A stretch of 64,000 bases of DNA from Rhodoferax potami (GTDB lineage Bacteria; Pseudomonadota; Gammaproteobacteria; Burkholderiales; Burkholderiaceae_C), in the NCBI RefSeq assembly GCF_032193765.1, contig NZ_JAVBIJ010000001.1:558001-622000 (forward strand), in the 5' to 3' direction. Below are positions 26,846-63,574 of the stretch, one piece after another. The first letter of the stretch is position 1. Each line of letters starts with the position of its first letter. The position numbers and the translations under genes were made by a program. The notes below the pieces were generated by a model that had not been told where the DNA came from, ran no database searches, and was given only the letters and a program-made list of their open reading frames with translations.

Positions 26846-27709
26846 CTACATGGCTTTGAAGCGGTGGGCGTAAAGGCGGCTGACCGGCAGTTTGTCATGG
26901 CGCTCGCGCAAGGTGAGCGAGAGCTTGCCCGCCTCGTCGCGGTGCACGAATGCAATTGCGCTGGCCCGCACCACAGTGCCGCGGTGGATCTGCCAGAACT
27001 CGTCCGGGTCGAGCTGGTTGAGCAGGTCTTTCAGGGGGGTGCGCAGCAGGTATTCGCGGTCGGCAGTCAGGACCCGCAGGTACTTGTCGGCCGCCTCGAA
27101 CACCAGCACCTCGCTCACCGAGACCATGTGAATCTGCTGCCCCACGCTGGCTTGCAGCACCTGCAGGCGGGGCAGAGCTGGCGTCGCGCCCATGCCGCTG
27201 CCGGTGACCCGGGCGCTGTGCTCCAGCAGGCCGCGCAGTTGGTGCAGCGTGGCGTCCAAGGTGGCATCAGGTACTGGATTTGCTATTGTTTCAGGAGCGG
27301 TATGCGCAGGTTTTATGAGGGCCTGCTGCAGTTTTGACACAGTTTTTTGTAAGCGCGCGGCTTGCACTGGCTTGAGCAGGTAGTCCATAGCCTGCGCTTC
27401 AAAGGCTTGCACTGCGTATTGGTCGTAGGCGGTCACAAACACCAGCGCAGGGAAGGGCTGGTGCGGCGCGTGGGCCGGGGGCCAGAGTTCGGCCAGCTCG
27501 AGGGCGGCGTCCAGCCCGCTCAGGCCGGGCATGCGGATGTCAAAAAACAGCACCTGGGGTGCCAGCTCCAGCGCAGCCCGAACGGCGGATGCGCCATCGC
27601 CCACGGTTCGCAGCACCTGCAGCCCGGGCCAGGCACGGGCCAGCTCGGCCTGCAGGGCCATGGCCAACAGGGGCTCGTCTTCAGCTATCAGTGCGGTCGC
27701 AACGGTCAT
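26846..27709 (-). CDS. LytTR-family response regulator
   Basis: A 287-residue regulator: receiver domain at residues 1 to about 120 (acidic pocket 'IAEDEP', phospho-acceptor 'LFFDIRMPGLSG', 'VFVTAYDQYAVQAFEA', then 'YLLKPV'), a linker, and a LytTR DNA-binding domain from about 190 ('ADKYLRVLTADREYLLRTPL', 'WQIHRGTVV'). The linker contains a copy of the window's repeat in frame. It is paired with the LytS-like kinase immediately upstream (6-base gap). It resembles AlgR-type regulators of surface behaviour; targets are unknown. Confidence 0.92.
   Translation of the reverse strand: MTVATALIAEDEPLLAMALQAELARAWPGLQVLRTVGDGASAVRAALELAPQVLFFDIRMPGLSGLDAALELAELWPPAHAPHQPFPALVFVTAYDQYAVQAFEAQAMDYLLKPVQAARLQKTVSKLQQALIKPAHTAPETIANPVPDATLDATLHQLRGLLEHSARVTGSGMGATPALPRLQVLQASVGQQIHMVSVSEVLVFEAADKYLRVLTADREYLLRTPLKDLLNQLDPDEFWQIHRGTVVRASAIAFVHRDEAGKLSLTLRERHDKLPVSRLYAHRFKAM
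27280..27324 (-). repeat. Repeat relative G1, in frame in the LytTR regulator linker
   Basis: TTGCTATTGTTTCAGGAGC, then TATGCGCAGG and GAGGGCCT match the reverse-oriented repeat blocks (TTGCTA, AGNAGC, TGCGCA, GGGCCT). It encodes roughly residues 128-143 of the regulator, between receiver and DNA-binding domains, without breaking the frame. Similarity is partial. Confidence 0.5.
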
Positions 27710-27715
27710 GAGGGC

Positions 27716-28774
27716 TCAGATCTTGAGGGGGAAAGTGACACTGGCGCTTATTCCGCCTTCGGGGGCTGCTACTAAAAGCATAGCGCCCTCGCTACCGAAG
27801 GTGGTGGCCAGTCGCTCGCGCACCTGTTGCAAGCCAAAGCCGTGGCCGGGTGAGGGCGTGGCTTGGCCTTGCAGGCGGGTCGGGTCTGCGCCCAAGCCGG
27901 TGTCTTGCACCTGCAAAGTTAAGCGCCCGTGGTCTGCGCTGGCGGCGATGCGGATGCGGCCGCCCTCCACCTTGGGCTCCAGGCCATGCTGGATGCTGTT
28001 TTCTACCAGGGGTTGCAGCAGCAGGGGCGGCACCGGCTGGTCGCGCAATGCATCGGGCAGGTCCAGGGTGAACTGCAGCCGTGGTCCCATGCGGATGGCC
28101 ATGAGCTCGAGGTAGTCGTGCAGGCGGGCAAACTCATCGGCCAGGGTGTGGCGGGTGCCGCCTGCCGGCGCGCGCGAGGCCGAGAGGGTGGCCCGCAAGT
28201 AGGCAATCATGTGATCCAGCATGGTTTGGGCCCGGGCCGGGTCGAGGCTGATCAGGGCGCGCAGGTTGGCCAGGGTGTTGAACAGCATGTGCGGCTCCAG
28301 CTGCGATTCGAGCAGCTTGAGCTGGGCCTCGCTGGCTTGGCGGCGGGCAATCTCGAGGTTTTGCCGCTCAGCGGCGAGTTGCTCCCGGCTCACAAATACC
28401 CAGCAAATCGTGCCGCCGGCCACCAGGCTCACAAACAACATGCCCCAGGCCATGCGGGGCGTCTGTTTCCAGTATTGAAACGAGGTGGTGCCCAGGATCA
28501 GGTCGGTCAGCAGATGGCCGCTCACATAGCCCAGCACCACCGACACCGGCACGATGAAGATCAGCCGGGACACATGCTTTTGCCAGTTGTCCACCAAGAA
28601 GTAGTTGGCACACTCGATGTAGCACCAGATGCAAATGCCTATGCAGTTCGAATACACCAGGTTGAGGCCGAACGAGTGGTTGTCAAACAGCGTGATGCCC
28701 AGCGCAATGACGGTGTTGAGGACCAGCACCTTGAGGCCGCGCAGGGCTAAAGCAGTAGGGGGCAGGGGGCGCAT
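27716..28774 (-). CDS. LytS/AlgZ-like membrane sensor histidine kinase
   Basis: A 352-residue kinase with four membrane helices in the first 130 residues, then a coiled linker ('LAAERQNLEIARRQASEAQ') and the His_kinase domain with 'LESQLEPHMLFNTLANL' (phospho-histidine in 'LEPHML'), an N-box 'LVENSIQHGLEPK' and G-boxes 'DTGLGADP' and 'GHGFGLQQV'. It should phosphorylate the LytTR regulator encoded just downstream. Its sensory input is through the membrane part and is unknown. Confidence 0.92.
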   Translation of the reverse strand: MRPLPPTALALRGLKVLVLNTVIALGITLFDNHSFGLNLVYSNCIGICIWCYIECANYFLVDNWQKHVSRLIFIVPVSVVLGYVSGHLLTDLILGTTSFQYWKQTPRMAWGMLFVSLVAGGTICWVFVSREQLAAERQNLEIARRQASEAQLKLLESQLEPHMLFNTLANLRALISLDPARAQTMLDHMIAYLRATLSASRAPAGGTRHTLADEFARLHDYLELMAIRMGPRLQFTLDLPDALRDQPVPPLLLQPLVENSIQHGLEPKVEGGRIRIAASADHGRLTLQVQDTGLGADPTRLQGQATPSPGHGFGLQQVRERLATTFGSEGAMLLVAAPEGGISASVTFPLKI

Positions 28775-28807
28775 AGGGCTCTGAGTATGCCGCCAAGCGT
28801 GGCGCGC

Positions 28808-29104: not shown

Positions 29105-29129
29105 AGCGATGGACTCCAAGCGGGGTGAA

Positions 29130-40976: not shown

Positions 40977-43900
40977 TTAGGACTTCGAGCGTGCCAGGTT
41001 GAGAGCCAGTAGGCGTTTCAAAACCTCTTCGTCGGGCATGGCGGTGGTGTAGTCGGACCAGCCGTATGCGGCGGCCACGGCCTGGTCCAGTGCCTCATGG
41101 GCTGCCTGCAACCAAGCCGGGCGCTGGTTGTAAAGCTTGGTCAGAGTGCGCTGGGCTAAGTCTTTCTCAAATCCAAGCTTGGGCACGATGCGGTCGGGGT
41201 AGGGGCTGGTGGTCATGCCTAGCGGTACGACTTCAGGCAACCGTTCAGTCCACTCGGGCGGGTTGAGCCAGTTCTCCCGCAAGTCGTTGAGGCGCTTAGC
41301 GGCTTGGGCAATGCTGGTTGCTACAGTTTTCGTAGCTGCTTGCGCATATAAGGCGTGCGCTAGAGGCTGATTTGACTCGGAAAGCCCTGCCGGAATCAGC
41401 GCGCCACCGGCTACAAGCTCTGTGCGCTGGTGGGCAGTGTCGGCGGGCGTCAGGCCCTCGGGGAAGGGGAAGGTTTCGAAGCAGGTGGTGGGGGTGTAGC
41501 GAGGCCGATCTTCCAGCGATGTGCCCATACGCAGCGACCAGAGTTCGTGGAAGCGGCTGTGCAGGATGCCGAAGGTGGTGTCATCGGCGCGGGTTATTGC
41601 GACGACGGCGCTGTCTGGAAGCACTGCGCTGTTGAACCATGCGAATACTCGATGTTTAGAAACTCTGGGCGAGATGATCTGTCGCGGTATCTCTGCAAGC
41701 GCCAGCTTCATCGCTGGGCGTGGATCTCCATGACTCCACCAATGCAAGCGATGCCAGTCGCGTCGGAGTTCTAGGCGTGTCGGTTTGACATGCTGTGCAG
41801 CGTGAGCAAAAGGCAACTCGAAGAGGCTGGCATCTGCTTCGGACATCTTGTCGAAGTCAACAACCCACAAGTTCTCCGGGCGGCGGGTCACGCTCAGGCC
41901 ATTCGCCCAGGGCCGCACCACTTGCGCGTTCGATTGACCATGAGGATTAGGCTGCGCTAGCCAAGCTACGGCTGTTTCGCGGGGAACGTCAAACGGGCCG
42001 TTCTTCTGCGTGCCGATGAATGAGGCTTCGGCATTGGCAGACAACTTGGTAGCTGTCGTCAGGTCGCCACCACCTGCGGCATCTTGTGCGCTCAGGTCGG
42101 CAGCAATCAGCGCAACGGAAGTACTGTTTAAACAGGCTTCTTGGTCAGCATGGCCAAACGCCACCAAGGACACTCGGACTGCCGCGCCTTCATTCACCCA
42201 GCCTTCGTCACCCCAAGCTTCGTAAATGCGCGTGGTCGAGCAAATAGCTTCCAGAACTTTGCGATTGGCTCCGCCACGTATGGAGTTGGTCGACACCAAG
42301 CCGGCTGCGCCCAAACCATGGCTCTCGATAGCTTTGCGAGACTTTTCAAACCAATAGCACACCAAGTCGGCACCACCGGGGACGCGATCGGCATAGACCT
42401 TGCGCAGGGTGAGTGTGTAGGCCTCGCCTAACTCACGGATCATTTTTCGGTCGCCCAAAAACGGCGGATTCCCAATCACCACGCTGGCTTTGGGCCACTG
42501 GGCTTCTTCTACTGCGGGCGGTGCATCCGGATCGTCCTCCATTGGCACAAAGGTCAGCAGCGCATCGCGGCACTCAATATGATCCAGCGGCTCCAGCACG
42601 GGGTTGGTCTTGAAGTCGTAGCCATGCTCAATGCGCCACTGCAGTTCGCCAATCCACACCGTTACCCGCGCTAGTTCGGCGGCGTATTCGTTGAGCTCGA
42701 TGCCCAACACGTTGTGCGGGCCAGTGACCAAGTCGGCCTGCCGGTCGAGCCCTAGGTTGGCGGCATCGAGGTGGCTTTTGTGCTCTATATCTTTCAGGGC
42801 TTTGAGGCCAAGGAATAAAAAGTTACCGCTGCCGCAGGCCGGATCGAGCACGCGGTAGGCGTTGAGTTGCTCAAGCCAGTCGTGAAAAAGCCGCTCTGCT
42901 GCCTGAAACGAGGCATCACCTGCCGAAGCCCGGAAATGCCTGCCGCCCGCGGAATAGGCCGCTCGTCGCTTTTGCTTACTCTTAGCCATTAGCGTCCGTA
43001 TTTCCTGCGCTACTAGCTCCCATTTTTGTAGCAGTGGGCGGGTCAACACCGGCTCCACGATGCGCAGGATAGTGGCCGGGTCGGTGTAGTGGGCACCGAG
43101 CTGGCTGCGTTTGGCGGGGTCCAGGCCCCGTTCAAACAGGGTGCCGAAGATGGACACATCAATAGCCGACCAGTTCAGCGAGGCCGCGTTGCGCAACTCG
43201 GTCACTTCCATGATGGTGAGCATCGGCACTTTCACCTTCTTGAACAGCCCACCGTTGAACCACGGGATGTCGTCGTTGCCATACAGGCCGCCCTTGCGCA
43301 TCACCGTGAACAGGTTGGTAAGGCCCTGGCTGAGTCGGTCGGCGGTGAGTTGTTTGTTGTTGACCAGCCCTTCAAACATGCGACCGGGGAGCAGGCCCAC
43401 GTCTTCCGCAAAGAAGCAAAACAGGCACTGGGTAAGGAAGTGGGCGACTTCATCTGCGTGCTCGCTGGTGCCCGGGCCGCGTTTGCGCAGGCCTTCGGCC
43501 AGGGTGGCAAAGCTCTTGGCGGCGGCTTCGGTGATGTCACGGCTGGTTTTCTTGGGGCGAAAGCTCTCAGGGTCGGTCCACAAGCGGCGTAGCAAGGCTT
43601 GTTTTTCGGGCTGGGCCAGCTCGGCCAGCAACACGGTGTGCACCTCAGACGGATGGCCGTTGAATTGGGTGTGGATGCGGATGGTGAGCCGGTCGCACAC
43701 CACCAGCAGTGGCGGGTTGCTGAGCGCTAGGCTGTAGGTCAGCAGTTGCTTGAGCGCGGCATCCAAGTTGCGCCCAGGTGCTTTGTTTTCCCAAGCGAAG
43801 TGGTTGCGCTTGAACACGTCGGCATAGCCACGGGCTTCGCCCAGGATGAGTGTGTCTTGCTCAAACAGGTAGTCGCCATCGGTGCCGGGTGTGGGCACGC

Positions 43901-44028: not shown

Positions 44029-46638
44029 TTAGTTTTTGCTCGCTAGAGCTTTTAGCTGATACAGCGCGTCCATCGCTTCCCTGGGGCTCAGTGCATCAGG
44101 ATTGATGGCCGAAAGCGCCGATTCCAGTGCGCTAGTCGCTACTACTTCTGTAGCGGGTGGCGCGGCGAAAAGGTCTACTTGGGTTTGGGATTCGCTGGCC
44201 TGGGCTTCCAGCGCGTCCAAAGTATGGCGGGCGTGGTTGAGCACGGCGGCGGGCATGCCGGCCAGGCGGGCCACTTGCACGCCGTAGCTTTTGCTGGCCG
44301 GGCCGGGCTCAATGGCGTGCAGGAACACAATGTCGCGGCCCGCTTCGGCAGCGCTCACATGCACATTCAGCGCCGCGTGGTGGGTGGCGGGGAACTCGGT
44401 GAGCTCGAAGTAGTGGGTGGCAAACAGGGTGAACGCCTGCGTTTTGTCGTGAAGCTGGGTGGCTATTGCCGAGGCCAAGGCTAGGCCGTCAAAAGTGCTG
44501 GTGCCGCGGCCGATTTCGTCCATCAGCACCAGGCTATGGGGTGTAGCGCTGTGCAGGATCTGCGCGGCCTCGGTCATCTCGAGCATGAAGGTGGACTGGG
44601 CGTTGGCCAAGTCGTCCGCCGCGCCGATGCGGGTGTGGATGGCGTCAATCGGCCCCAATCGGCATGCCTGCGCAGGCACGTAGCTGCCGATGCTGGCCAG
44701 CAGCACAATCAGGGCGACCTGGCGCATGTAAGTGGATTTACCGCCCATGTTGGGCCCGGTGATGATCTGCATGCGCTGCTTCACACCCAGTCGGGTGTCA
44801 TTGGCAATGAAGTTGCCACTGCTCAACTCGGCCAAGCGCGCCTGCACCACGGGGTGCCGGCCTTGGGTAATGTCGATGCAGGGCTCGGCCACAAATTGCG
44901 GGGCATTCCAGTCCAGCGTGAGCGAGCGCTCGGTCAGCGCGCACAAGGTGTCCAGCGCGGCGAGCGACTGGGCTACGGCCGTGAGCGCGGCGATGTGTGC
45001 CTGCAACTGGTCCAGCACCTGTTCAAACAACCATTTCTCGCGGGCCAGCGCGCGCTCCTGGGCGCTCAGGGCTTTGTCTTCAAAGGCTTTGAGCTCGGGG
45101 GTGATGAAGCGCTCGGCGTTTTTCAGGGTCTGGCGGCGGCGGTAGTCCTCGGGCACTTTGTCCACCTGGCCGGTGGTGACTTCGATGTAGAAGCCGTGCA
45201 CCTTGTTGAACTGCACCCGCAGGTTGGCAATGCCGGTGCGGGATTTCTCGCGGACTTCGAGGTCCAGCAAAAAGTCATCGCAGTTGGTTTGGATGGCACG
45301 CAGTTCGTCCAGCTCGGCGTCAAAGCCGTCGGCAATCACGCCACCGTCGCGCACCAGCGCTGCAGGTTCGGGGGCAATAGCGCGCCCCAGCAGGGCAATG
45401 GCCTCAGCAGGTGGCTGCAGGTGGCTGCAAATATGTGCCAAATAGCCCTCTAGCGACCGCAGGTTGTGCGCGAGAAGCTCTGTTTTTTGTAGCGTTTGCA
45501 CCAGCGCCACCAGCTCGCGTGGGCGCACTTGGCGCAGGGCAATGCGGGCAGTGATGCGTTCCACATCAGCACACCCTTTGAGCTGACCACGCAGGGTTTG
45601 CCACATGTTGTGGCGCAGCGTGCCAATGGCCAGCAGGCGGTGCTGCGCCTCGGTTCGGTCGCGCAAAGGCTCCAGCAGCCAGCGTTTGAGCAGGCGGCTG
45701 CCCATGCCGGTCATGCAGGTGTCGAGCAAGCTAAAGAGGGTGGGGCTGTCCTCGCCGCGCAGGGTCTGCACCAGTTCCAGGTTGCGGCGGGTGGTGGCGG
45801 GCAGGTCGATGAGCGCGTCGTCGCGCTGCACCTGCACGCTGTGGATGTGGGTCAGCGTGCGGCCTTGGGTGTGTTCGGCATAGCCGATCAGAGCGCCCGC
45901 TGCAGCATGGGCCAAGGCCAGCTCTTGGGCGTTCCAACTGCTAAGGCTGGCGGCTTGCAGCGCGTCCAGCAGTTTGCGCTGACCCAAGGCACTGTCGAAC
46001 TGCCATTCGGGGCGGGCAGTCAAATAGACGGCTGTGCCGTGGCGCAGGCGTTTGATTCGGTCTTCAAAGGTGGTGGTGCAGCCCGCGCTGTAAGCAAGTT
46101 CGCTGGGGGCGATGCGGCTCACCCAGTCGGGCACTTCGTCAGGCGTGCATTCGGCGAGAAACACCACGCCCTGGGTGACGGACAGCCATGCCAGGCCGCA
46201 GCGGTTGCGCGGGCCTTGGTGTACGGCCATCAGCATGGATTCTGTTTTTTCGGACAGCAGCTCGGCGTCGGTGAGCGTGCCGGGCGTGACCACGCGCACG
46301 ACCTTGCGCTCCACCGGGCCTTTGGTGGCCCCCACTTCGCCGGTTTGCTCGCAAATGGCTACCGACTCGCCGTGGCGGATCAGTTTGGCCAGATACCCTT
46401 CCATCGAGTGGAATGGCACACCGGCCATGACTACCGGTTGCCCGGCGGACTGACCACGGGTGGTGACGGTGATGTCCAGAATCCGGGCCGCCTTTTCGGC
46501 ATCGTCATAGAACATCTCATAAAAGTCACCCATGCGGTAGAAGAGCAGGGTGTCGGGATGGTCGGCTTTGAGCCCCAGATACTGCTGCATCATGGGGGTG
46601 TGCTGGTCGAGTGGAGCGGAGGCTGGGGGACGTGTCAC
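44029..46638 (-). CDS. mutS: DNA mismatch repair protein MutS
   Basis: An 869-residue mismatch-recognition ATPase. The N-terminal domain opens '[20 protein letters not shown]' and has the mismatch-probing motif '[14 protein letters not shown]' (F-x-E). The core, clamp and ATPase domains follow with Walker A '[15 protein letters not shown]', '[20 protein letters not shown]' and 'LFATHYFEL'. All key residues are present. The MmeI-like gene follows by 19 bases, and the first PAS-GGDEF-EAL gene is divergent. A stretch at 45439-45494 resembles the window's repeat. Confidence 0.96.
45439..45494 (+). repeat. Repeat relative G4, in frame inside mutS
   Basis: CCAAATAGCCCTCTAGCG, then TGTGCGCGAGAAGCT and TTGTAGCG match the repeat in order, about 35 of 56 positions without gaps by eye. 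It encodes residues of about 381-400 ('[19 protein letters not shown]') in the core lever region. The E. coli protein has nearly the same length here, so a replacement, rather than an added segment, or a chance match must be considered. Confidence 0.45.
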
Positions 46639-46739: not shown

Positions 46740-49667
46740 GTGCAACCTCCTCCGGAATCTTCATCGTTTGATCCCGATGCTTCGGCTGCTGCCGACCATC
46801 CACCGCCAGCCGGTGTGGGGGCGGGTGTGTTTCACATCATCTTCGAGTCCAGCCCGGAGGCCATTGCGCTGACACGGGTCCGCGATGGTGCCATCGTCCA
46901 GGTGAACCGCGAATGGGAGTCCATGACCGGGTATCGCCGCGAGGAGGTGGTGGGGCGCACCGCGCTGGCCTTGGGCCATTGGCTGCACCCTGAGCAGCGC
47001 ACATCGATCTTTGGTGATCTGAAGCCCGGTGGCCGAGTGATGGACGTCGACGTGTCCCTGGTCATGAAGGACGGCTCCCCACGCGTAGTGCGCCTGAATG
47101 CGACCATGCTGATGGAAGCGGGTGAGGCGTACATCCTGATTTACCTGCGCGATGTCACCGCTGACCTGTTGGCCCATGAGGCGCTAAGGTCGGGTGAACT
47201 GGCGCTGGCCCATGCCAACACGGCGATGAACCGGCAGGTCAAGCTGCATGAGCTCACCGAGTCAGTGGCGCAAGTGGGGCATTGGGTGAACTACCCCGGA
47301 GACAAGACCGTCTACCTCTCCCCCGGTTTGGCCCAGATTGCGGGCTTGGAGCAAGAGGCGGTTGTCACCATGGATATGTTGTGGGGGCGGGTGTTTCCGG
47401 AGGATCTGCCCGCGTTGCACCAAGCGCGCCATCGGATGGACGGCGAAGTGGTGGAGTTCCGCTCTTCGGGCCCCGGAGGGCGGACGCTGTGGGCGCGTTC
47501 CCGCATGCACCGCCAAGTGGTGGACGGACGGGTGTTGGCTGACTTCGGGGTGGTTCAAGAGTTCACGCATGAGCGCGAAGCGCGCGACAGCCTCCAGAAA
47601 CAGTTCGATTTCATTCACAAAATCACCAGTCGCGCGCCCGGCATGTTGTTTGAGTTCCAGCGTTTGCCGAACGGGCGGTTCAGCTTTCCGTTCGTCAGCG
47701 ATGCGGTCCGGCAATTCTTCGGTGTCACAGCAGAGCAAGCCCGTGCAGATTCCCGGCGCTTGATGTCGCGCATCCACCCACAGGATGTGAATCAGGTCAT
47801 CAATACCACCCTGCATGCGACACAGACCATGCAGCCTTGGCAATGCGAGTTCAGGGCGCAGGTGCCCGGCGCGCCGCTGCGCTGGTTGTTGGGGACCTCG
47901 ATTCCAGAAAAGCTGGCGGACGGCGCTGTGCTGTTCACCGGGTCTATCACCGACATCACTTCGCAAAAGCTGGCCCTCGAAAAGCTCCAGGAGAGCGAAG
48001 AGCGGTTTCGTAGCCTTTCCAGCTTGTCTTCAGACTGGTACTGGGAGCAGGACGCCGAGTTGCGCTTCACCCGCATTGATGGAAATGGCGCCAATACGGA
48101 CCGTTTGGCGCCGCAGTCGTCCATCGGTCATACCCGCTGGGATTCCGGGGCGCAAGGGGTCAGCCCTTCTCAATGGCGGGCCCATATGAAGGCGCTCGAA
48201 GCCCGCCAGACTTTTCAAGATTTCGAGATGCAACGGGAGTTGTCAAACGGGCAGCTGATGTGGATATCGATCAGCGGAGCCCCTGTTTTTGACAGTCAGG
48301 GCCGGTTTTGCGGCTATCGCGGCACAGGGCGGGACATCTCATCGAGAAAAGCCGCGGAGTCTGAAATCGAGCGCCTCGCTTTTTTTGATGCGCTCACAGG
48401 CCTGCCGAACCGGCGGATGCTCTTGGACCGGCTCGGGCTGGCCTTGTCGTCGAGCCACCGCAGCGGCCAGCACGGGGGCTTGCTGTTTATCGACCTCGAC
48501 AATTTCAAGGTACTCAACGACACCCTTGGCCACCACATGGGCGATTTGTTGCTCAAGCAAGTGGCCCAGCGTTTGCAAGAGTGTGTGCGCAGTGTCGATA
48601 CCGTGGCCCGCCTGGGCGGCGACGAGTTCGTGGTCATGTTGGAAGAACTGCACGCCGATGCCGCGATGGCGGCCACTGAGGCAGAAGCCGTCGCCAAGAA
48701 AGTGCTGCACACCCTGAACAAACAGTTTGCGCTGGGCAACCACAACATGCACAGCTCGCCCAGCATTGGAGTTGCCATGTTTTGCGGGCACGCAGAAGGT
48801 ATTGAGGAGCTGCTCAAGCGGGCTGATTTGGCCATGTACCAGGCCAAAAATGCAGGCCGCAACACCGTGCGGTTTTTCGATCCGGCTATGCAGTTAGCAG
48901 CCTCTGCCCGTGCAGAGATGGAAGTCGACCTGCGCAAGGCCTTGCAGGAAGAGCAGTTGGTGCTGTACTACCAACCGGTGGTGACCGCGAATGGGGCCAT
49001 TACCGGCGTAGAAGCCCTGGTGCGGTGGATGCACCCCGCTAAAGGCATGGTGTCTCCGGGTGAATTTATTCCGCTGGCAGAGCAGACAGGGCTCATACTC
49101 CCCTTGGGGCAATGGGTGCTGGAGGCAGCCTGTGCCCAGCTGGTGGCGTGGAGTGCGGATCCGCACACGCAGCGCCTGAGCGTGGCGGTGAACGTGAGCG
49201 CCAGACAGTTCCGGCATCCCGATTTCTCGACCCATATTCTCGATTTGTTGCGGACCAGCGGGGCAAATCCCTACCGCCTGAAGCTTGAACTCACTGAAAG
49301 CCTGCTCTTGACTGATTTTGAAGAAGCGGTTTTGAAGATGAGCGAACTCCGGTCGATCGGGGTGAGCTTTTCACTTGATGACTTTGGCACGGGCTATTCG
49401 TCCCTGGCGTATTTGAAACGGCTCCCCTTGGATCAACTAAAAATCGATCAGTCGTTCGTGCGCGATGTGTTGACCGACCCGAACGATGCCGCCATCGCGC
49501 GCACGATTTTGAGCCTTGCCAAAAGCATGGACCTCGGGGTGGTGGCGGAGGGCGTCGAAACAGCGGGGCAGCGCGACTTTTTGCTCGCGGCCGGGTGCCA
49601 CGCGTTTCAGGGTTACTTTTTCGGCCGGCCAGTGCCTGTTGAGCAACTGCAACTAAGGCCCTTGTAA
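46740..49667 (+). CDS. Multi-PAS GGDEF-EAL protein (first of tandem pair)
   Basis: A 975-residue soluble protein: about four PAS-type sensor segments (approx. 30-140, 180-285, 295-415, 415-545), a GGDEF domain (545-705, active site 'ARLGGDEF', with RxxD 'RSVD' five residues before) and an EAL domain (720-970: 'VEALVRWMHP', 'NVSARQF', 'LELTESLLL', '[14 protein letters not shown]', 'LKIDQSF'). Both catalytic sets look intact, so net direction depends on the PAS signals. The frame's first start is GTG at 46740; a strong ribosome site AAGGAGGT lies about 24 bases upstream, so the true start is unsure. Overlaps its paralogue by TAATG. Confidence 0.9.
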   Translation: MQPPPESSSFDPDASAAADHPPPAGVGAGVFHIIFESSPEAIALTRVRDGAIVQVNREWESMTGYRREEVVGRTALALGHWLHPEQRTSIFGDLKPGGRVMDVDVSLVMKDGSPRVVRLNATMLMEAGEAYILIYLRDVTADLLAHEALRSGELALAHANTAMNRQVKLHELTESVAQVGHWVNYPGDKTVYLSPGLAQIAGLEQEAVVTMDMLWGRVFPEDLPALHQARHRMDGEVVEFRSSGPGGRTLWARSRMHRQVVDGRVLADFGVVQEFTHEREARDSLQKQFDFIHKITSRAPGMLFEFQRLPNGRFSFPFVSDAVRQFFGVTAEQARADSRRLMSRIHPQDVNQVINTTLHATQTMQPWQCEFRAQVPGAPLRWLLGTSIPEKLADGAVLFTGSITDITSQKLALEKLQESEERFRSLSSLSSDWYWEQDAELRFTRIDGNGANTDRLAPQSSIGHTRWDSGAQGVSPSQWRAHMKALEARQTFQDFEMQRELSNGQLMWISISGAPVFDSQGRFCGYRGTGRDISSRKAAESEIERLAFFDALTGLPNRRMLLDRLGLALSSSHRSGQHGGLLFIDLDNFKVLNDTLGHHMGDLLLKQVAQRLQECVRSVDTVARLGGDEFVVMLEELHADAAMAATEAEAVAKKVLHTLNKQFALGNHNMHSSPSIGVAMFCGHAEGIEELLKRADLAMYQAKNAGRNTVRFFDPAMQLAASARAEMEVDLRKALQEEQLVLYYQPVVTANGAITGVEALVRWMHPAKGMVSPGEFIPLAEQTGLILPLGQWVLEAACAQLVAWSADPHTQRLSVAVNVSARQFRHPDFSTHILDLLRTSGANPYRLKLELTESLLLTDFEEAVLKMSELRSIGVSFSLDDFGTGYSSLAYLKRLPLDQLKIDQSFVRDVLTDPNDAAIARTILSLAKSMDLGVVAEGVETAGQRDFLLAAGCHAFQGYFFGRPVPVEQLQLRPL

Positions 49668-52606
49668 TGTCTGAAAACGCCGCCTCCGGTGATGCGGTCC
49701 CCCTGACTGAGCTGGACGGCTTGCGCACGGCCAATGCGTCGCTGGAGCGGGTGAACCGCCGCCAGTTCGATATGTTGCAGGCGCTTTTTTTGCACAGCCC
49801 GGCCGCCATTTCTTTGCAAAGTGTGGAAGATGGCCGGTTTGTGGATGTCAATATCCAATGGCAGCGGTTGACGGGCTACTCGTGGGAGCAAGCGACCTCA
49901 AGTACTTCACTGAGCTTGGGGTTCTGGCCGGATATCGAGTCCAGAAACCGCGCGCTGGCGGAGCTGGAGCAAGACCCCTCCCTCTCGGGCGTGGAAATCA
50001 ACTTCACCAACGCCCGCGGCGAAAACATGTTGCTGGAGTGGCGTGGCTCGGTCATGCAGATTGCGGGCGAGTCGTTCTTGCTGGCGTATTTGATCGACAT
50101 CACCGCGCAGCGAGTGGCCCAAGAGGCCGTGGTCGAGGGCGAGCATGCCTTGCAGGAGGCCAATGACGACTTGCGCGGACAGGTGGAGTTGTACGAAGAA
50201 ACCGAAAAACTGGCCCAAGCGGGCCATTGGATCGTGCCCCAGGGCCATTCCATACCGCGGTGGTCCCGGGGCCTGTTTCAGATGGCACGGATCCCATGGA
50301 CTGAAAAGATAGGCCCTGATGTTTGGGAAACTGGCCTGCACAAAGATGACCGGGCGAGCTACCTCGCAGCGCGTGAGGCCATGGATGGCCGGTTGGCAGA
50401 GTTCCGGTGGACTTGCCGCGACGGCGATGTGCGCTGGTGGCGCAGCCGCATGCACCGTTACCACCGTCAGGATGGAAGCTATGTGGATTTCGGTGTCGTC
50501 CAGGACTTCACCGAAGAGGCATTGGCCGAGCAGGTGCTGCAGCAGCGTTTGGATGTGATTCAGCGCTTGACCAGCCGTTTGCCAGAGATGGTCTTTCAGT
50601 TCGAGATGTTCACCCGCGACAGTGGTCGCTTTGTGTTTGTGAGCGATGCGTGCAGTGACATTTTTGGCGTGACTCCGGAGGAGGCGCGTGCCAACCCCGC
50701 CAGCGTGTTCCGATTGGTGCATAGCGATGACATCATCCAAACGCTGAAGTCCATGAACGCCGCGGCATCGGACGCGACCACTTGGGCCCAGGAGTTCCGT
50801 ATCCGCCGGCGGGATGGCACGGTGCGCAGCCTGTTCGGCAAAGCGATTGTTTTTCTGGAGCCCACGGGCCGCTTTAATGCGTATGGCTCTCTGACCGATG
50901 TGACTGAGCACAAGGCCTCGTTGGCGGTGCTTCAGGAGAGCGAGGCCCGGTTCCGAGCGCTGACGGAGCTCTCCTCCGATTGGTACTGGGAGCAGGATGC
51001 TGACCACCGCTTCATTCGTTTTGACGGCGCCTTACAGGCCGGCAAGACCAAAACAGGGGAGCGGAATATCGGGCTGACCCGATGGGATGCCGGTGCGATC
51101 AACATGACAGACGCTGATTGGCAAGCCCATCGCGCCCTGCTGGATGCAAGGTTGCCTTTCTATGAGCTGGAGCTGTGTGACCACGATGCGGACGGCGTCG
51201 TGTTTTGGATCTCTGTCAGCGGCGCTCCCATTTTTGACTCGCATGGCGTGTTCAAGGGCTACCGGGGCATCGGACGGAGCATTACCGAGCGCAAGGCGGA
51301 CGAAGCCAAGATTGAGCGGCTCGCTTTTTACGATGTGCTCACTGATCTGCCGAACCGCAGGTTGCTGCAAGACCACTTGCAGTACGCAGTGGCGGCCTGC
51401 GCCCGCGGGCGCCTGCACGGAGCATTGCTGTTCATTGACTTGGACAACTTCAAAGACCTCAATGACACCCGGGGGCACGATGTCGGCGACCGGCTGCTCA
51501 CCCTGGTTGCCAGACGCCTGCAAGCCTGCGTCCGTGAATCCGACACAGTGGCCCGCCTGGGTGGGGATGAGTTCATTGTTCTGTTGCAGGACCTCGATGG
51601 CACCGCAGCCCAGGCTGGCCTCCAAGCCGAAGCGGTGGGGCAAAAAATCCTGCTCCAGTTGAATGCCCCGTATGACCTGCCCGGCGGCCCGCACCACAGC
51701 ACCCCCAGTGTGGGCATTGTGCTGATTCATGGGCAGCGCCAGTCGGTGGATGAGCTGCTCAAGCAAGCCGACTTGGCAATGTACGAGGCCAAAGCGGCGG
51801 GTCGTAATACGCTGCGGTTTTTCGATCCGGCCATGCAGTTGATGGTGGCCCAGCGCGCCGAGCTGGAGTCGGACCTCCGCCTCGGGCTGAAGCGCGGTGA
51901 GTTGATGTTGTATTACCAGCCCGTGGTGGATGCAAACAGAGCTGTGGTGGGTGCTGAGGCGCTGTTGCGCTGGCTCCATCCGGGGCGCGGTCTGGTGTCG
52001 CCATTGGAGTTTGTGCCGCTGGCAGAGCAGACCGGCTTGATCATTCCGGTGGGTGTGTGGGTGTTGCAGACGGCGTGTGCGCAGCTGGCGCAATGGGCTT
52101 CAGACCCTCTGAGTGCCCACCTGACCGTTGCGGTGAATGTGAGCGCCCGTCAGTTCCGCCAAGATGAGTTTGTGTCTCAAGTGCAGGGTGCGCTCCAGCA
52201 AACCGGAGCCGACCCCAAACTACTCAAGCTCGAGCTGACGGAGAGCCTGCTGCTCACCGACACCCAGGATGCCATCATGAAAATGGCCGCCCTCAGGAGT
52301 CTGGGCGTGCGCTTTGCGCTGGATGATTTTGGAACCGGCTATTCATCGCTGTCGTATTTGAAAATGCTGCCCTTGCAGCAGCTCAAAATCGACCAGTCAT
52401 TTGTGCGGGATGTGCTCACCGACCACAACGATGCGGCCATTGCCCGCACGGTGCTCGCCTTGGGGCGAAGCCTCGGCTTTGATGTGGTGGCCGAGGGGGT
52501 GGAAACCGAGGGGCAGCGCCAGTTCCTGCTAGATCAGGGCTGCACCTTGTTCCAGGGTTATCTGTTCGGCCGACCGGTGCCGGTGGCCGAGTTTCGCTTC
52601 AATTAA
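49667..52606 (+). CDS. Multi-PAS GGDEF-EAL protein (second of tandem pair)
   Basis: A 979-residue paralogue of the preceding protein, same domain order, with shared blocks such as '[10 protein letters not shown]', '[20 protein letters not shown]', '[11 protein letters not shown]', '[16 protein letters not shown]', '[15 protein letters not shown]' and '[12 protein letters not shown]'. The N-terminal PAS segments diverge most, suggesting different signals. The start ATG overlaps the upstream stop (TAATG), so the pair is translationally coupled. RxxD inhibition site 'RESD' is present. Both cyclase and phosphodiesterase motifs are intact. It ends by overlapping the convergent suhB stop. Confidence 0.94.
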
Positions 52607-53649: not shown

Positions 53650-54489
53650 ATGCACACCCGATTTATCCTCATTAATACCAGCCACGCGGGCAATGTGGGC
53701 GCCGCTGCCCGCGCCATCAAAACGATGGGTTTCGACGATCTCGTGTTGGTCGCGCCCCGCTGGCCCAATGTGTTGCGCCGGGAAGAAACCATTCAGCGCG
53801 CCAGCGGCGCCTTGGATGTGCTGGACAAGTGCCGCATCGTTGACACTCTGGACGAGGCGCTGGATGGCATCACCCATTTGTGCGCCACGGCCATGACCCC
53901 GCGGGACTTCGGGCCGCCCACCACTACGCCACGAGAGCACTTTGAAGCGCTATCAAAAAAAGAGCTGCTCGCGCAGACGCCATCGGCGCCGGGCAATGAT
54001 TTGGCATCTGAACCTGCAGTGCAGGGGCAACAAGGCATCGGCTTTTTGTTCGGCTCCGAGCGCTTCGGCATGCGCAATGAAGACGTCTACCGCTGCCACG
54101 TCTGCCTGTCCATTCCCAGTAATCCGTCCTTCGGCTCCCTCAATATCGGCGCGGCCCTGCAGGTCATTGCCTATGAGTGGCGCTTGGCCTTGGGTGGTTT
54201 TGGAGTTCAGTCTCCTTTCGCTCCGTCACACCTGGCCGATGCAGCGCAGGTAACGGGCATGCTGACGCATCTGGAGCAGTCGCTCGTGCAGCTGGGGTTT
54301 CTCGATCCTGCGGCGCCCAAAAAACTGATGCCCCGGCTCAATGCCCTGTTCAACCGGGCGCAGGTCACGCAAGAGGAAATCCACATCCTGCGGGGCATTG
54401 CCAAGGCCATCCTGCAGCAAAACCCGCAATTGCCTGCCCGCAGTGCGGATTTGGTGGCGATAGACGGCAAGCCGGTCTTGAAGGGATAG
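53650..54489 (+). CDS. trmJ: tRNA 2'-O-methyltransferase TrmJ
   Basis: A 279-residue SPOUT-fold methyltransferase for position 32 of tRNA anticodon loops. Signatures: 'NTSHAGNVGAAARAIKTMGF', 'GFLFGSERFGMRNEDVYRC' and 'IPSNPSFGSLNIGAALQVIA'. The segment between 'TPRE' and 'IGFLFG' is about 33 residues against about 13 in E. coli TrmJ as I recall it, and its start (about residue 99-113) matches the window's repeat. Divergent from suhB with a 132-base gap. Confidence 0.92.
   Translation: MHTRFILINTSHAGNVGAAARAIKTMGFDDLVLVAPRWPNVLRREETIQRASGALDVLDKCRIVDTLDEALDGITHLCATAMTPRDFGPPTTTPREHFEALSKKELLAQTPSAPGNDLASEPAVQGQQGIGFLFGSERFGMRNEDVYRCHVCLSIPSNPSFGSLNIGAALQVIAYEWRLALGGFGVQSPFAPSHLADAAQVTGMLTHLEQSLVQLGFLDPAAPKKLMPRLNALFNRAQVTQEEIHILRGIAKAILQQNPQLPARSADLVAIDGKPVLKG
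53948..53990 (-). repeat. Repeat relative G5, in frame inside trmJ
   Basis: CGCTATCAAAAAAAGAGCTG, then CTCGCGCAGACGCCATCGGC and GCC match the reverse-oriented repeat in order (GCTATCAAAA, GAGCT, CTCGCGCA, GGCGC). Compare R7, which has GCTATCAAAA-TGTGAGCT-ACTCGCGCA. It encodes 'ALSKKELLAQTPSAPG' in the loop between the two SPOUT halves, where the protein is longer than E. coli TrmJ. Confidence 0.65.
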
Positions 54490-59823: not shown

Positions 59824-61068
59824 TTATAGCGCCTTCAGGCGGGCTGCCAAGCCATGCGCACACGCAAAGCCGCTAGCCCAGGCCCATTGGAAGTTGTATC
59901 CGCCTAACCAGCCGGTGAGATCGGTCACTTCACCGATGAAAAACAGGCCCGGTTGTTGGCTCTCCAGAGTCTGGCTGGACAAGACTTTGGTGTCTACACC
60001 GCCCGCGGTGACCTCGGCTTTGCGATAGCCCTCGGTGCCGGTGGGCGTGAGTTCCCAGCGAGAAAGGCGCTCGGCCAGTGCGTTCAAGGCCTTGTCGCTG
60101 GCTTCATTCACGGGGCGTTGCCAATCATGCCCCCAGGTCGGGCCCTGGTTCACCCAGGTATCGGCAAGGCGGCTGGGCACCAGGCCTGCCAGCTCATTGG
60201 CCACCCGTTTGCGCGAGCTGCTTTTAGCCTGCGAGAGGTGTTGTGCCAAGTCCACAGTGGGCGCCAGGTTGAGGCGAATAGGCGTGCCCTCGGCCCAGTA
60301 ACTGGAGATTTGCAGCACCCCGGGGCCGGAAAGGCCGCGGTGGGTGAAGAGCAAATCTTCGCGGAACGACATGCTGCTTTTCTTGCTGCCGGTTGCAATA
60401 TCGACTGGCAGCGACAAGCCTGACAACTCGGCGAACGGGGCCCACGAGGTTTCGTCGAAAGTGAGCGGGACCAGCGCCGGGCGCGGGGTGATCAGCGGCA
60501 GGTTGAACTGTTTGGCGACCCGGTAGCCGAAATCGGTCGCGCCGATCTTGGGGATCGACAAGCCGCCGGTGGCAATTACCAGCGCTGCGCAGTGGATGGT
60601 GCCGCGGTCACTATCAATTTCATAGCTGCTTGCGCATTTTCCATGAGGGCTAGAGGCCGAAAAGCGTATGTTTTTGACGCTGCAGGGTTGCCAGCGCTCT
60701 ACACCACCTGCGGCGCACTCGGCCAGCAGCATGGCAATCAGGTCTTCGGCAGAGCGGTCGCAAAAGAGCTGGCCCTTGTGTTTCTCGTGGAAGGCGATGC
60801 CGTGTTTTTTAACAAGCGCCACAAAGTCTGCGGGGGTGTAGCGCGAAAGGGCGGATTTGGCGAAGCGCGGGTTCTCGCTGATGAAGTTGGCCGCACTCAC
60901 GTCCATGTTCGTGAAGTTGCTGCGCCCACCCCCCGAGATGCGAATTTTCTCGGCGACTTTCTCGCTGTGGTCGAGCACCAGCACCTTCAGCCCGAGCTGA
61001 CCCGCCACACCGGCGCAAAACAAACCGGCAGCCCCGGCACCCACGATCACCACGTCAAAACTATGCAT
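59824..61068 (-). CDS. HI0933/YhiN-family FAD-dependent oxidoreductase
   Basis: A 414-residue flavoprotein: dinucleotide motif 'DVVIVGAGAAGLFCAGVAGQ', 'LVLDHSEKVAEKIRISGGGR', 'ALVIATGGLSIPKIGATDFG', 'LSGPGVLQISSYW' and 'CLVGEVTDLTGWLGGYNFQW'-type end ('FFIGEVTDLTGWLGGYNFQ'). The family (TIGR00275 type) has unknown substrates. Residues about 136-153 come from a repeat insertion in frame and make the loop before the second nucleotide motif longer than usual. Confidence 0.9.
   Translation of the reverse strand: MHSFDVVIVGAGAAGLFCAGVAGQLGLKVLVLDHSEKVAEKIRISGGGRSNFTNMDVSAANFISENPRFAKSALSRYTPADFVALVKKHGIAFHEKHKGQLFCDRSAEDLIAMLLAECAAGGVERWQPCSVKNIRFSASSPHGKCASSYEIDSDRGTIHCAALVIATGGLSIPKIGATDFGYRVAKQFNLPLITPRPALVPLTFDETSWAPFAELSGLSLPVDIATGSKKSSMSFREDLLFTHRGLSGPGVLQISSYWAEGTPIRLNLAPTVDLAQHLSQAKSSSRKRVANELAGLVPSRLADTWVNQGPTWGHDWQRPVNEASDKALNALAERLSRWELTPTGTEGYRKAEVTAGGVDTKVLSSQTLESQQPGLFFIGEVTDLTGWLGGYNFQWAWASGFACAHGLAARLKAL
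60609..60660 (-). repeat. Repeat copy G6, in frame in the flavoprotein
   Basis: CACTATCAATTTCATAGCTG, then CTTGCGCATTTTCCATGAGG and GCTAGAGGCCGA: a good reverse-orientation copy, especially TGCGCAT and GGGCTAGAGGCC. It encodes 'SASSPHGKCASSYEIDS' at residues of about 136-153, in a loop between strands where relatives are several residues shorter. Confidence 0.75.
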
Positions 61069-61127
61069 AGGCGCGCAGTGTAGGCGACGGCAAGGGTCTA
61101 TGGGGGGCCGGAGATACGACCTTCGCG

Positions 61128-61808
61128 CTAGGCGTGCTGTGACTTGCGATCCGCCAGATGGATGGCCTTTTGGGTCAGTCTGTCGACCTCGGTGCTGATG
61201 CCCGAAAGCACATTGGCCACCACCGCAAACTCACGCCCTTTGTCGCCGGCACGCGCTGCAATGACTTGGGCATTGAAACTCACGATCTTGGCTTCCCGGG
61301 CAATGGTGTGGATGTCCGACACGATCCCGCTGAGCTCTTTGAACAGGTTGTCCGATTGGGCTTGGGCTATCGAGTCAAAGGTGCTGGTGGCTTTGTTGAG
61401 CGCATTCAGCACCGTGTCGTTGTCGGCCACCATGTCGGCCAAGAGGGTGCGGGCATCGCCCTTGCGGCTGATGGTTTCGAGGGTGCGGCGCATCCGGTCG
61501 ATGAAGGTTTCTATCGTCACTCCAATGCCTTGCGGCCCTTCGTACACCGCGCGCAACTGGCGGGCACTGAGCGGCTCGTAGTGGGTGAGGGTGGCAAGTA
61601 GTTTGGCCTCGCTGTCGCAAAACAGCTGAAATGTTTTCTGGGCGGCCTGCAGTTGGGTGGTGTCGCCGTGCGACGCCAATAAGGCTTGCATGATGACCCG
61701 CTGTGACAGCATGCGCTGGCGGGCTGCCAGGTTGAGGTCTGACAATGGCGCATTGGCACCCGGGGCGGGGGCAACGGCAGGAGCAAGCGTGGTTGCGGGG
61801 TGCGACAT
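61128..61808 (-). CDS. Soluble PilJ-N/MCP-like nitrate-locus sensor protein
   Basis: A 226-residue protein without membrane segments. Residues about 25-135 look like the PilJ N-terminal sensory bundle ('NLAARQRMLSQRVIMQALLA', similar to the nitrate-type P-box). The end resembles the chemoreceptor signalling hairpin: 'EAKIVSFNAQVIAARAGDKG', 'REFAVVANVLSGISTEVD'. Its place upstream of the siroheme and nitrate genes fits a nitrate or nitrite sensor of assimilation. The ATG at 61808 is chosen; a GTG ten codons upstream is possible. The signalling partner is unseen. Confidence 0.75.
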   Translation of the reverse strand: MSHPATTLAPAVAPAPGANAPLSDLNLAARQRMLSQRVIMQALLASHGDTTQLQAAQKTFQLFCDSEAKLLATLTHYEPLSARQLRAVYEGPQGIGVTIETFIDRMRRTLETISRKGDARTLLADMVADNDTVLNALNKATSTFDSIAQAQSDNLFKELSGIVSDIHTIAREAKIVSFNAQVIAARAGDKGREFAVVANVLSGISTEVDRLTQKAIHLADRKSQHA

Positions 61809-61862
61809 GGGCAACTTGTGCGTGGTGAGTGTGCCCACAACGCCGCAAGTTGCGTGCCGGTT

Positions 61863-62672
61863 TCAGTGGGCGCGTTGGGCGCCGGCAGAGGCGCCGGTAG
61901 TAGTGTCGGCTTGCGCAGCAGCCAACAAGCCGCTCATCACATCGCCCACCACGATCACGCTCGGGCTGGCCAAATGTTCGCGAACGATGGTGTCCTGCAG
62001 CTCGCCCAATGTGCAGACCGCGTGGCGCTGGTGCGGCAGGCTGGCGTTTTGAATGACGGCTACCGGTGTGCTGGATGCCAAGCCTAGTAGCAGTCCGGCC
62101 TGGATATCAGCTGCGCCGCTCACGCCCATGTAGATCACCAGCGTCAGTTTGGCCTGGCGGGAGGCTGTGGCCAGTGCGGGCCAGTCGGTGCCGCTGTCCC
62201 CGGGTTTGGCGTGGCCGGTCACAAACACCACGCCGTGGGCATGTTCGCGGTGGGTTAGCGGCACGTTGAGGGAGGTCACAGCCGCCAGTCCGGCGGTCAC
62301 CCCATTGACCACCGATACACGGATGCCGGCTTCTTCGAGGTGTTCCACCTCTTCGCCGCCACGGCCGAAGATGAAGGGGTCGCCGCCCTTGAGTCGCACC
62401 ACGTTTTCGCCCTCAAGGGCTGCGGTGATCATCAGGCGTTCAATGAATGACTGGGGGGTCGACTTGCAGCCGCCGCGCTTGCCCACATGAACGATGCGGG
62501 CCGCCGGGTTGGCGTGGGCCACTATGGCGTCGTTCACCAAGTCATCCACCAGCAGTACGGTGGCTTGCTGGATGGCTTTCAAGGCCTTGAGGGTGAGCAA
62601 CTCCGGGTCGCCGGGGCCGGCGCCCACTAGCGTGACATGGCCTGCGGCCGGCGTGTTCAGGGTGTTTGTCAT
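61863..62672 (-). CDS. cobA: Uroporphyrinogen-III C-methyltransferase
   Basis: A 269-residue methyltransferase making precorrin-2, the precursor of siroheme needed by nitrite and sulfite reductases. Signatures: 'VTLVGAGPGDPELLTLKALK', 'VLLVDDLVND', 'GGCKSTPQSFIERLMITAAL', 'VVRLKGGDPFIFGRGGEEVE', 'VVNGVTAGLAAVTSLNVPLT' and 'TLVIYMGVSGAADI'. Its start overlaps the ybiB stop (ATGA). It is in the nitrate-assimilation context. Confidence 0.95.
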   Translation of the reverse strand: MTNTLNTPAAGHVTLVGAGPGDPELLTLKALKAIQQATVLLVDDLVNDAIVAHANPAARIVHVGKRGGCKSTPQSFIERLMITAALEGENVVRLKGGDPFIFGRGGEEVEHLEEAGIRVSVVNGVTAGLAAVTSLNVPLTHREHAHGVVFVTGHAKPGDSGTDWPALATASRQAKLTLVIYMGVSGAADIQAGLLLGLASSTPVAVIQNASLPHQRHAVCTLGELQDTIVREHLASPSVIVVGDVMSGLLAAAQADTTTGASAGAQRAH

Positions 62673-63574
62673 AGTGCTTGGTGCAACTGCAAGATGTGCG
62701 CCACTTGCTCTGCAATCGGGGCAGGAACCGGGCTCTCTCCGTTCAATACCGATTGTATGTAGGTCGCGGTGCTGGCTGCATCGATCGCGGTGGGCAGCTC
62801 CGGCAGCGTTGTCAACGAGCCGGCTTGGTAGGCCCGCAGGTCCGTCGCCTTGCCGGCCAAGAAGGCTTGCATCTTGGGGGTGCGGCGGGCGTCGGCCACC
62901 GCTTCGCCCTCAGTGCCGCGGATCAGCAGGGCGTTGGCTTGCACCAGGGCAAACGTATCCGCCATAGACACTGCGTATTCGGGGTGGGTGTAGCTGCTCA
63001 CCAGCAGGGCGGGGCCGTCCACCGGGTTCATGAGCTTGACCAGGCTGTGCGCCGGGTTGCGCAGGTTCACCACGCGGCGCACATCCAGCAGGCGCTGTAG
63101 GCCGGGCAGTAGGGTGCCGGTAGGCACAAACGCCACGCTGCCGGTTGCTATTCTTTTGGTATCTGCTTGCGCATGTATTCCGAGCGCTGCGAGCACTTCA
63201 GACACAAAAACCCGCTTGTCCTCGGTGGCGGTGCCGTGGATCAGCACCGGGAGGCCCTCGCGCGCCAGCAGCAGGGCCAAAAGCGGGGTTAGTAAGGGCA
63301 GCTTGCGCGCACCGTTGTAGCTGGGGATAACGACGACCGGCACATCGCTGGCGGGCAGCAGGGCCATGCGGCTGCGCACGGCGTCCAGAAAACCGGCCAT
63401 TTCTTCCGCGGTTTCGCCTTTGATGCGCATGGCCAGGCAAAAGGCGCCCACTTCGAGGTCGGTGACGGTGCCGTCCAGCACTTGGCCCAGCAGGTCGGCC
63501 GCCTGCGTGCGGTTGAGCGCACGTGCGCCGTCTTTGCCGCGACCGATTTCTTTGATGTAGTTGCCAATAGCCAT
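62669..63574 (-). CDS. ybiB: YbiB/TrpD2-family DNA-binding glycosyltransferase-like protein
   Basis: A 301-residue protein of the anthranilate phosphoribosyltransferase fold: 'LNRTQAADLLGQVLDGTVTD', 'CLAMRIKGETAEEMAGFLDA', 'RRVVNLRNPAHSLVKLMNPV', 'LLVSSYTHPEYAVSMADTFA' and 'GTEGEAVADARRTPKMQAF'. YbiB binds nucleic acid rather than making tryptophan. It is common between nitrate reductase and cobA in these bacteria. Residues about 127-143 come from a repeat copy. Overlaps cobA by ATGA. Confidence 0.9.
   Translation of the reverse strand: MAIGNYIKEIGRGKDGARALNRTQAADLLGQVLDGTVTDLEVGAFCLAMRIKGETAEEMAGFLDAVRSRMALLPASDVPVVVIPSYNGARKLPLLTPLLALLLAREGLPVLIHGTATEDKRVFVSEVLAALGIHAQADTKRIATGSVAFVPTGTLLPGLQRLLDVRRVVNLRNPAHSLVKLMNPVDGPALLVSSYTHPEYAVSMADTFALVQANALLIRGTEGEAVADARRTPKMQAFLAGKATDLRAYQAGSLTTLPELPTAIDAASTATYIQSVLNGESPVPAPIAEQVAHILQLHQAL
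63145..63192 (-). repeat. Repeat copy G7, in frame in ybiB
   Basis: TTGCTATTCTTTTGGTATCT, then GCTTGCGCATGTATTCCGAG and CGCTGCGAG follow the reverse-orientation repeat (TTGCTA, GCTTGCGCAT, AGCGC). It encodes 'ALGIHAQADTKRIATG', in the loop preceding 'SVAFVPTGTLLPGLQRLL'. Confidence 0.65.

Follow-up and report, generated by a model that had tools for sequence, protein, structure and literature searches.

The window analyzed here, a stretch of 64,000 nucleotides from Rhodoferax potami (NCBI RefSeq assembly GCF_032193765.1, contig NZ_JAVBIJ010000001.1, positions 558,001 to 622,000 of the forward strand), harbors copies of an interspersed 55-bp DNA motif, which in the window genome (4.0 Mb) reads AAATCGGCCTCTAGCGCTCGTGGAATATGCGCGAGCAGCTATTAAATTGATAGCA. 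With a 55-position hidden Markov model (HMM) of the motif family, which was trained on copies from the window genome with the scored sites included, 16 matches were found in the window, namely seven within genes, seven good copies located either outside genes or at their ends (39.5–56.4 bits) and two weak ones. An earlier inspection of the letters alone (the original prediction) had placed copies in a LytTR regulator, an MmeI-like enzyme (two), MutS, TrmJ, an HI0933-type flavoprotein and YbiB, all of them in frame, and each of these seven was recovered, at 23.9–50.0 bits:

27281..27335, minus strand, in the linker of the LytTR response regulator (gene 26846–27709, minus strand), sense frame, 23.9 bits
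41319..41373, minus strand, in the MmeI-like enzyme (gene 40977–44009, minus strand), sense frame, peptide NQPLAHALYAQAATKTVATS, 49.8 bits
42984..43033, plus strand, second copy in the MmeI-like gene, antisense, no gap relative to 5hr4, 25.3 bits
45440..45493, plus strand, in mutS (gene 44029–46638, minus strand), antisense, length-neutral, 33.5 bits
53949..53990, minus strand, in trmJ (gene 53650–54489, plus strand), antisense, a clean insertion as judged by alignment, 28.2 bits
60611..60660, minus strand, in the HI0933-type flavoprotein (gene 59824–61068, minus strand), the other sense frame, a partial insertion at most, 50.0 bits
63146..63195, minus strand, in ybiB (gene 62669–63574, minus strand), sense frame, length-neutral within the genus, 27.6 bits

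As set out below, the motif enters genes in frame, in some cases by insertion of an entire copy and in others with no change in length, and the in-gene copies tested are maintained as DNA. No description of the motif in this bacterial group was found in the open-licence literature of PubMed Central, in agreement with the original prediction, which knew of none.

Copy number and distribution of the motif

The motif is carried by part of the Comamonadaceae, at no fewer than 150 copies per genome; any match at all was found in 45 of 120 genomes, 28 of which have at least 45 matches. For the window genome, the figure of at least 150 copies comes from a first covariance model, with which 150 of 2114 candidates were scored, and is hence a lower bound. 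In 400 kb of one syntenic region in five same-genus genomes, which may be an untypical region, 68 matches of at least 15 bits were counted, and extrapolation from this density puts the copy number at probably several hundred per genome. An 885-kb sample of the window genome, made up of 48 pieces picked greedily around matches and therefore denser than the genome average, holds 164 matches of at least 20 bits, of which 70 lie outside called open reading frames (ORFs), 53 across an ORF end and 41 well inside. The motif is thus depleted within genes, as ORFs make up 662 of the 885 kb. Both strands are used in every 0.5-Mb bin, with a skew of up to 15 to 6, and there are no close inverted pairs. 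The conservation of the columns is very uneven, in that nine of the 55 are invariant in 90 of 90 copies and four are near random, an unevenness to which the choice of these copies at 30 bits or more contributes.

In-gene copies and the reading frames used

The simplest explanation of the in-gene matches would be chance or convergence at the level of the peptide, so that ordinary coding sequence merely resembles the repeat. The original prediction had proposed a comparison with shuffled coding sequence, and here the real matches turned out to be far more numerous: with a model built without the in-gene set, the coding sequence of the 885-kb sample yielded 64 matches of at least 20 bits, versus 1, 1, 0, 0, and 0 in five synonymous re-encodings and 0, 0, and 0 in three shuffles of codon order. 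In a second test, 31 in-gene rows (two of which overlap, the two MmeI sites lying outside the set) were scored with a weight matrix derived from 90 other copies, none of them in the in-gene set, and the real DNA was better than all 300 re-encodings of the same peptide in 30 rows. The remaining row, 1635394, is the weakest (20.5 bits), aligns over 10 residues and was equalled by one of 300 re-encodings, and a chance match in synonymously shuffled coding sequence reached as much as 36.1 bits. Single weak sites may therefore still be due to chance, but for the whole set this explanation is refuted by the counts and by the register-specific conservation described below, and we regard it as hardly credible.

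The copies had also been expected to encode similar peptides. This holds within one reading frame and fails across frames: the first MmeI site and those of YbiB and LytTR are all read in one sense frame (AQAATK-type peptides), HI0933 is read in a different sense frame, and TrmJ, MutS and the second MmeI site are read antisense (ELLA-type peptides). The frames used inside ORFs are largely those that are free of stop codons in copies outside ORFs; sense frame 1, which is open in one of 70 such copies, is unused in genes. For six in-gene copies, the frame used is an antisense one, open in none of the 70.

Conservation of in-gene copies at the DNA level

The sites are old. Across the syntenic region as compared in six genomes of the genus, 265 ordered comparisons had flanks that could be aligned on both sides; the copy was kept at the same place in 257 of them, and none revealed a recent empty site, as the eight without a partner copy all trace to a single decayed copy. 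The five in-gene copies of the window other than those of MmeI are present in all six genomes, the LytTR copy occupying the same site in the window genome and in its five relatives.

At the third codon positions of these five copies, the mean pairwise difference among the six genomes is 0.106 at high-information columns of the motif (n = 46) and 0.413 at low-information columns (n = 31; p = 6e-6), compared to 0.294 at flanking third codon positions (n = 260). The effect in the true register exceeds that in each of the 54 circular shifts, and the five genes all point in the same direction, LytTR least. Since the copies had been found in the window genome, which could introduce a discovery bias, this genome was also left out, with much the same result (0.107 versus 0.397, p = 1e-5).

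The spelling of the motif differs between genomes, its middle reading TATGCGC in Rhodoferax, CAAGCGC in a group with G171 and G156, CTGCTCAAG in G090 and TTATTGCCTAA in G086. Across 10 or 11 genomes, the copies in TrmJ, MutS and HI0933 resemble each other more closely when they come from the same genome than when they come from different ones (TrmJ–MutS, p = 1e-4; MutS–HI0933, p = 2e-4; TrmJ–HI0933, p = 0.007), and the first two pairs remain significant without G086 and G090 (p = 2.5e-4 and 0.006). Base composition does not explain this matching, because offsetting one copy removes the effect (true z-scores of 4.4, 3.2, and 3.1 versus −2.1 to 2.6 in the shifted controls). The in-gene copies moreover fit models made from the other copies of their own genome, none of 5000 label shuffles being as good (one of 5000 without G086 and G090), and the model of the own genome was the best for 11 of 19 in-gene copies. 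All of these dialect tests draw repeatedly on the same few genomes. As the synonymous positions critical to the motif are held while the free columns drift, and as copies in unrelated genes have the spelling particular to the other copies of their genome, the in-gene copies tested are maintained as DNA.

Insertion or no change in length

The original prediction expected clean insertions relative to orthologues that lack the repeat, which is borne out for TrmJ and GDPD; MutS, YbiB and six of 18 further copies show no such insertion, and HI0933 shows a partial one at most. By alignment, the TrmJ copy is a clean in-frame insertion: in 120 genomes of the family, many TrmJ matches are split at the insert, and ~17–25 extra residues of the type LLKxELLAxxxxALEADLA are found in many genera and nothing in others, with 16 of 53 TrmJ stretches scoring at least 10 bits with the Rhodoferax model. 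Among the best 80 of 533 relatives, 43 have a long loop (37 residues or more), of which 28 score at least 10 bits with a multi-dialect model and 15 do not, whereas none of the 37 shorter loops has a motif match, eight loops of 32–35 residues that carry no motif score being counted as short. Records with a long loop come from Rhodoferax, Curvibacter, Acidovorax, Comamonas, Diaphorobacter, Simplicispira, Ramlibacter, Polaromonas, and Giesbergeria; the loop is short in Limnohabitans and Variovorax records and also in several of Rhodoferax, in Diaphorobacter caeni and in one Comamonas metagenome bin. The TrmJ of the window genome shares 99% identity with its counterpart in Rhodoferax sp. UBA4409. 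In an AlphaFold model of moderate quality (mean predicted local distance difference test score, pLDDT, of 72; predicted template modeling score of 0.57), the insert region 111–126 has a pLDDT under 50. On a MutS tree, 16 of the 20 genomes with the TrmJ insert fall into one well-supported clade, and five changes of the insert are needed on the tree as drawn, of which the well-supported branches force one.

The other copies in the window span a range. The HI0933 region measures mostly 114 nt in motif-bearing genomes versus 90–105 in motif-free ones (one 117), with the motif spanning ~55, and the MutS region measures 114 nt with the motif and mostly also without it, G086 having 159. For YbiB, which was compared within the genus, there was no gap in 30 of 30 rows, and the first MmeI element falls mostly between two separate alignments to 5hr4.

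Another 20 in-gene copies were considered. For 18 of them, between one and three orthologues were available from genomes without the motif, and for the KefC-like and MIP-like copies there were none; the net change in length was counted within ~24 residues either side of the copy. Five copies gain at least eight residues relative to each orthologue, namely GDPD, a clean insertion (+20), AcnA (+14/15), MetG (+12/21), DadA (+8), and YgiQ (+25 to +31). Four are mixed (two PurL copies, +3 to +13; acyl-CoA ligase, 0 to +12; HAD hydrolase, +6/10), three gain three to four residues (ArgF, an outer-membrane efflux protein and a flavoprotein) and six are near zero (−2 to +4; SelO, alanine racemase, methylmalonyl-CoA mutase, a Mur-ligase-type protein, biotin carboxylase and GST). 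Relative to solved structures, there are gaps of 7 for PurL (1t3t), of 3 in all for KefC (8bxg), and of 3 (4f2g), 4 (7x99) or none (4oh7) for ArgF.

Comparison with known repeat systems

The repeat had originally been likened to the Rickettsia palindromic elements (RPEs), which are repeats that fold. RPEs are described as short repeats found in frame within protein genes that are unrelated to one another, in part as clean insertions (PMC10969869; PMC2996958), and the palindromic element is ~150 bp long (PMC10969869). The likeness lies in the in-frame copies within protein genes and in the clean insertions among them, and the comparison holds for the arrival of some copies. It does not extend to the size of the motif (55 bp versus ~150 bp), its position mostly outside ORF interiors, the absence of a covarying hairpin, the length-neutral in-gene copies, the constraint at the DNA level or the genome dialects.

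The uptake sequences of Neisseriaceae and Pasteurellaceae (DNA uptake sequences and uptake signal sequences) are described as present in many copies on both strands, scarcer in genes, organized in dialects and located in tolerant regions (PMC3630211; PMC1939737). The motif resembles them in its many copies on both strands, which are relatively scarce yet present in genes, in its dialects and in the tolerant regions that it occupies within genes. In terms of individual traits of uptake sequences, the hundreds to thousands of copies in intergenic regions and genes find a parallel in the at least 150 copies of the motif, and the species-specific dialects in its spellings, for which the test within a single clade is weaker; an origin by point mutation fits the length-neutral sites but not TrmJ, GDPD, and AcnA, and a free-standing short core of ~9–12 bp is absent from the motif. 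The motif differs in its unit of 55 bp, in conserved columns that are spread out and in whole-copy insertions, and its core is not found by itself, in contrast to the short uptake sequences described in PMC3630211 and PMC1939737. A short-core uptake sequence was accordingly rejected as an explanation, as no short k-mer dominates in Rhodoferax and the core is not free-standing; in G090, 20 core matches lie, as judged by eye, in recognizable copies. G090 contains a further over-represented repeat, TGTGCTTTGTGCTTTG (loci L234–L236).

Three other candidates were dismissed. Repetitive extragenic palindromic (REP) sequences with their REP-associated tyrosine transposases (RAYTs) and miniature inverted-repeat transposable elements (MITEs) are small interspersed repeats in many copies, and the motif is like them in this respect. 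It differs in that it also occurs in genes and in that the lone Y1_Tnp match (PF01797) in the genome has no good copy nearby, the best motif match in the 3.3-kb locus scoring 13.5 bits. No terminal inverted repeats or target duplications were noticed at motif copies, for which no systematic search was made. A structured RNA or DNA hairpin was rejected, as there is no Rfam match, none of 19 proposed pairs covaries over 90 copies (several paired columns never vary and are hence uninformative) and C–A is the commonest combination at pair 42–50; the two hairpins noticed by eye thus lack covariation, and the fold z-scores of six copies are unremarkable (+0.30 to −1.71). A replication-oriented motif was likewise rejected, as the unevenness between strands in some of the 0.5-Mb bins has no consistent polarity.

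Interpretation and rival explanations

We propose that the in-gene copies are kept as DNA because the motif is read by a cellular factor, a reading that we consider evenly poised. A trans-acting DNA-binding factor would recognize the motif, and biased recombination or selection would keep restoring it. The closest working analogy is a DNA uptake sequence, whereby the preferred uptake of motif-bearing DNA would drive the motif into tolerant parts of genes. Such a drive is consistent with the number of copies, their scarcity in genes, the stability of the sites, the tolerated loops and the dialects. The involvement of uptake is the least certain step, possible but on the doubtful side. In its widest form, which we put forward only tentatively, the proposal is of an undescribed DNA-marking system of Comamonadaceae with a 55-bp recognition sequence and genus-level dialects, which would be actively driven into and kept in housekeeping-enzyme genes, probably serving as a tag for machinery of selective DNA uptake or recombination, and would shape protein loops such as that of TrmJ.

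Several observations weigh against this proposal. The DNA-binding factor is hypothetical, and an uptake-like drive does not fit the length of the motif, the whole-copy insertions or the loose link to ComEC. At 55 bp, the motif far exceeds known uptake sequences in length, its core is not free-standing (117 of 121 core matches in the 885-kb sample lie in or next to an HMM match), and the clean whole-copy insertions in TrmJ and GDPD are at odds with a drive purely by point mutation. ComEC is present in 118 of 120 genomes, motif-bearing and motif-free alike, and G066 has an intact ComEC yet only four motif matches. With regard to the dialects, eight of 19 in-gene copies best fit the model of another genome (some models rest on three or four copies), the TrmJ–HI0933 pair falls to p = 0.07 without G086 and G090, and inside the best-supported clade only TrmJ–MutS is significant (p = 2e-4; the others 0.11 and 0.16), so that the outlying genomes may have received separate later insertions. 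The total divergence of the copies is about that of their flanks, not lower (0.100 versus 0.065 over seven copies in the closest pair of genomes; 0.080 versus 0.073 over 13 copies in another pair), and the TrmJ copy of the window has lost much of the motif relative to G001.

A dependence on ComEC was considered and rejected. G095, in which no ComEC was found, has five R2 matches, while many of its clade mates have at least 47; but G063, whose ComEC is split over three frames (G063:C1:1836740-1837544), also has at least 47 and G066 has four, and the comparison is anecdotal. ComEC was not found in G091 either.

Two rivals account for part of the same evidence. The motif could be a selfish element akin to RPEs, that is a small mobile repeat that inserted in frame, survived in loops and has been decaying since, as suggested by the clean in-frame insertions in TrmJ and GDPD, the large net gains in AcnA, MetG, DadA and YgiQ, the use of mostly stop-free frames, the depletion inside genes and the low confidence of the TrmJ insert in the structural model, as expected of a tolerated loop. 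Against this, the length is unchanged at the copies in MutS, YbiB, alanine racemase, methylmalonyl-CoA mutase and others, no recent pair of an empty and a filled site came to light in the single syntenic region compared, and there is no covarying hairpin; moreover, the evidence does not bear out a one-off selfish insertion as the whole explanation, because it predicts neither the DNA-level constraint nor the genome-specific spellings, and we consider this reading unlikely. Alternatively, copies could have been pasted over partly similar DNA by gene conversion or short-patch illegitimate recombination, with a net change in length from zero to the full element and a homogenization of the copies within each genome. 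Such templated patch replacement would account for the gradient of net length changes and for the slightly faster divergence of copies than of flanks, and the 3′ half of the motif often lies over similar older sequence (HI0933, GGCTATGAAATCGACA; ArgF, AGCTACAAG; KefC, FALSALKVAG under YAQAAIKTIA), although this resemblance amounts to an anecdotal handful of examples. Conversion alone explains neither the distinction between fixed and free columns nor the synonymous constraint at the former, and we regard it as very unlikely.

If the proposal of a motif read at the DNA level holds, the genes of housekeeping enzymes across part of a family would carry a non-protein signal, whose spelling changes from genus to genus together with the other sites of the genome. 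The odd loops in TrmJ, aconitase, PurL and others would be explained, and a further group would be available, beside Neisseriaceae and Pasteurellaceae, for studying the spread of a motif and its co-evolution with its reader. If only the RPE-like reading holds, this would still be an RPE-like in-frame repeat in a free-living group.

Other features of the window and side observations

The remaining matches in the window lie between genes, at gene ends or, in one case, weakly within a gene:

5136..5190, plus strand, copy at a gene end or intergenic, present in four relatives aligned there, 39.5 bits
10288..10342, plus strand, copy between genes, the top score in the window, 56.4 bits
11681..11735, plus strand, copy between genes, 45.3 bits
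12209..12263, plus strand, copy between genes, 47.9 bits
13780..13834, plus strand, copy between genes or at a gene end, 52.1 bits
15999..16053, plus strand, copy between genes, 53.4 bits
27740..27784, plus strand, weak, decayed copy overlapping the end of the ORF 27716–28774, 11.8 bits
33040..33094, minus strand, copy at the junction of two same-strand ORFs, 46.2 bits
44108..44154, plus strand, weak match within mutS that does not count as a copy, 13.8 bits, E = 0.039

The copy at 27740–27784 is decayed in the window genome and in G001 and is good at the same place in G007, G059, G034, and G044. A 4.2-kb segment (window 11737–15992) between two direct copies of the motif is absent from G001, G007, G059, and G034, which have a single motif copy at the junction where it is missing, probably through recombination between motif copies. 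The MmeI-like gene (40977–44009) is present only in the window genome among the six same-genus regions compared. Two neighboring ORFs of 975 and 979 residues (window 46740–52606) look like tandem paralogues, because they have long diverged DNA repeats in common. In G086 (loci L146 and L174), there are ~15 extra residues beside the motif in both MutS and HI0933 relative to most relatives. In the HI0933 proteins of G095 and G078 (loci L187–L190), a site other than that of the motif holds an in-frame insert of a different kind, PHAPPLRGS..PEGA..LGRPG, apparently belonging to a second family of coding repeats.

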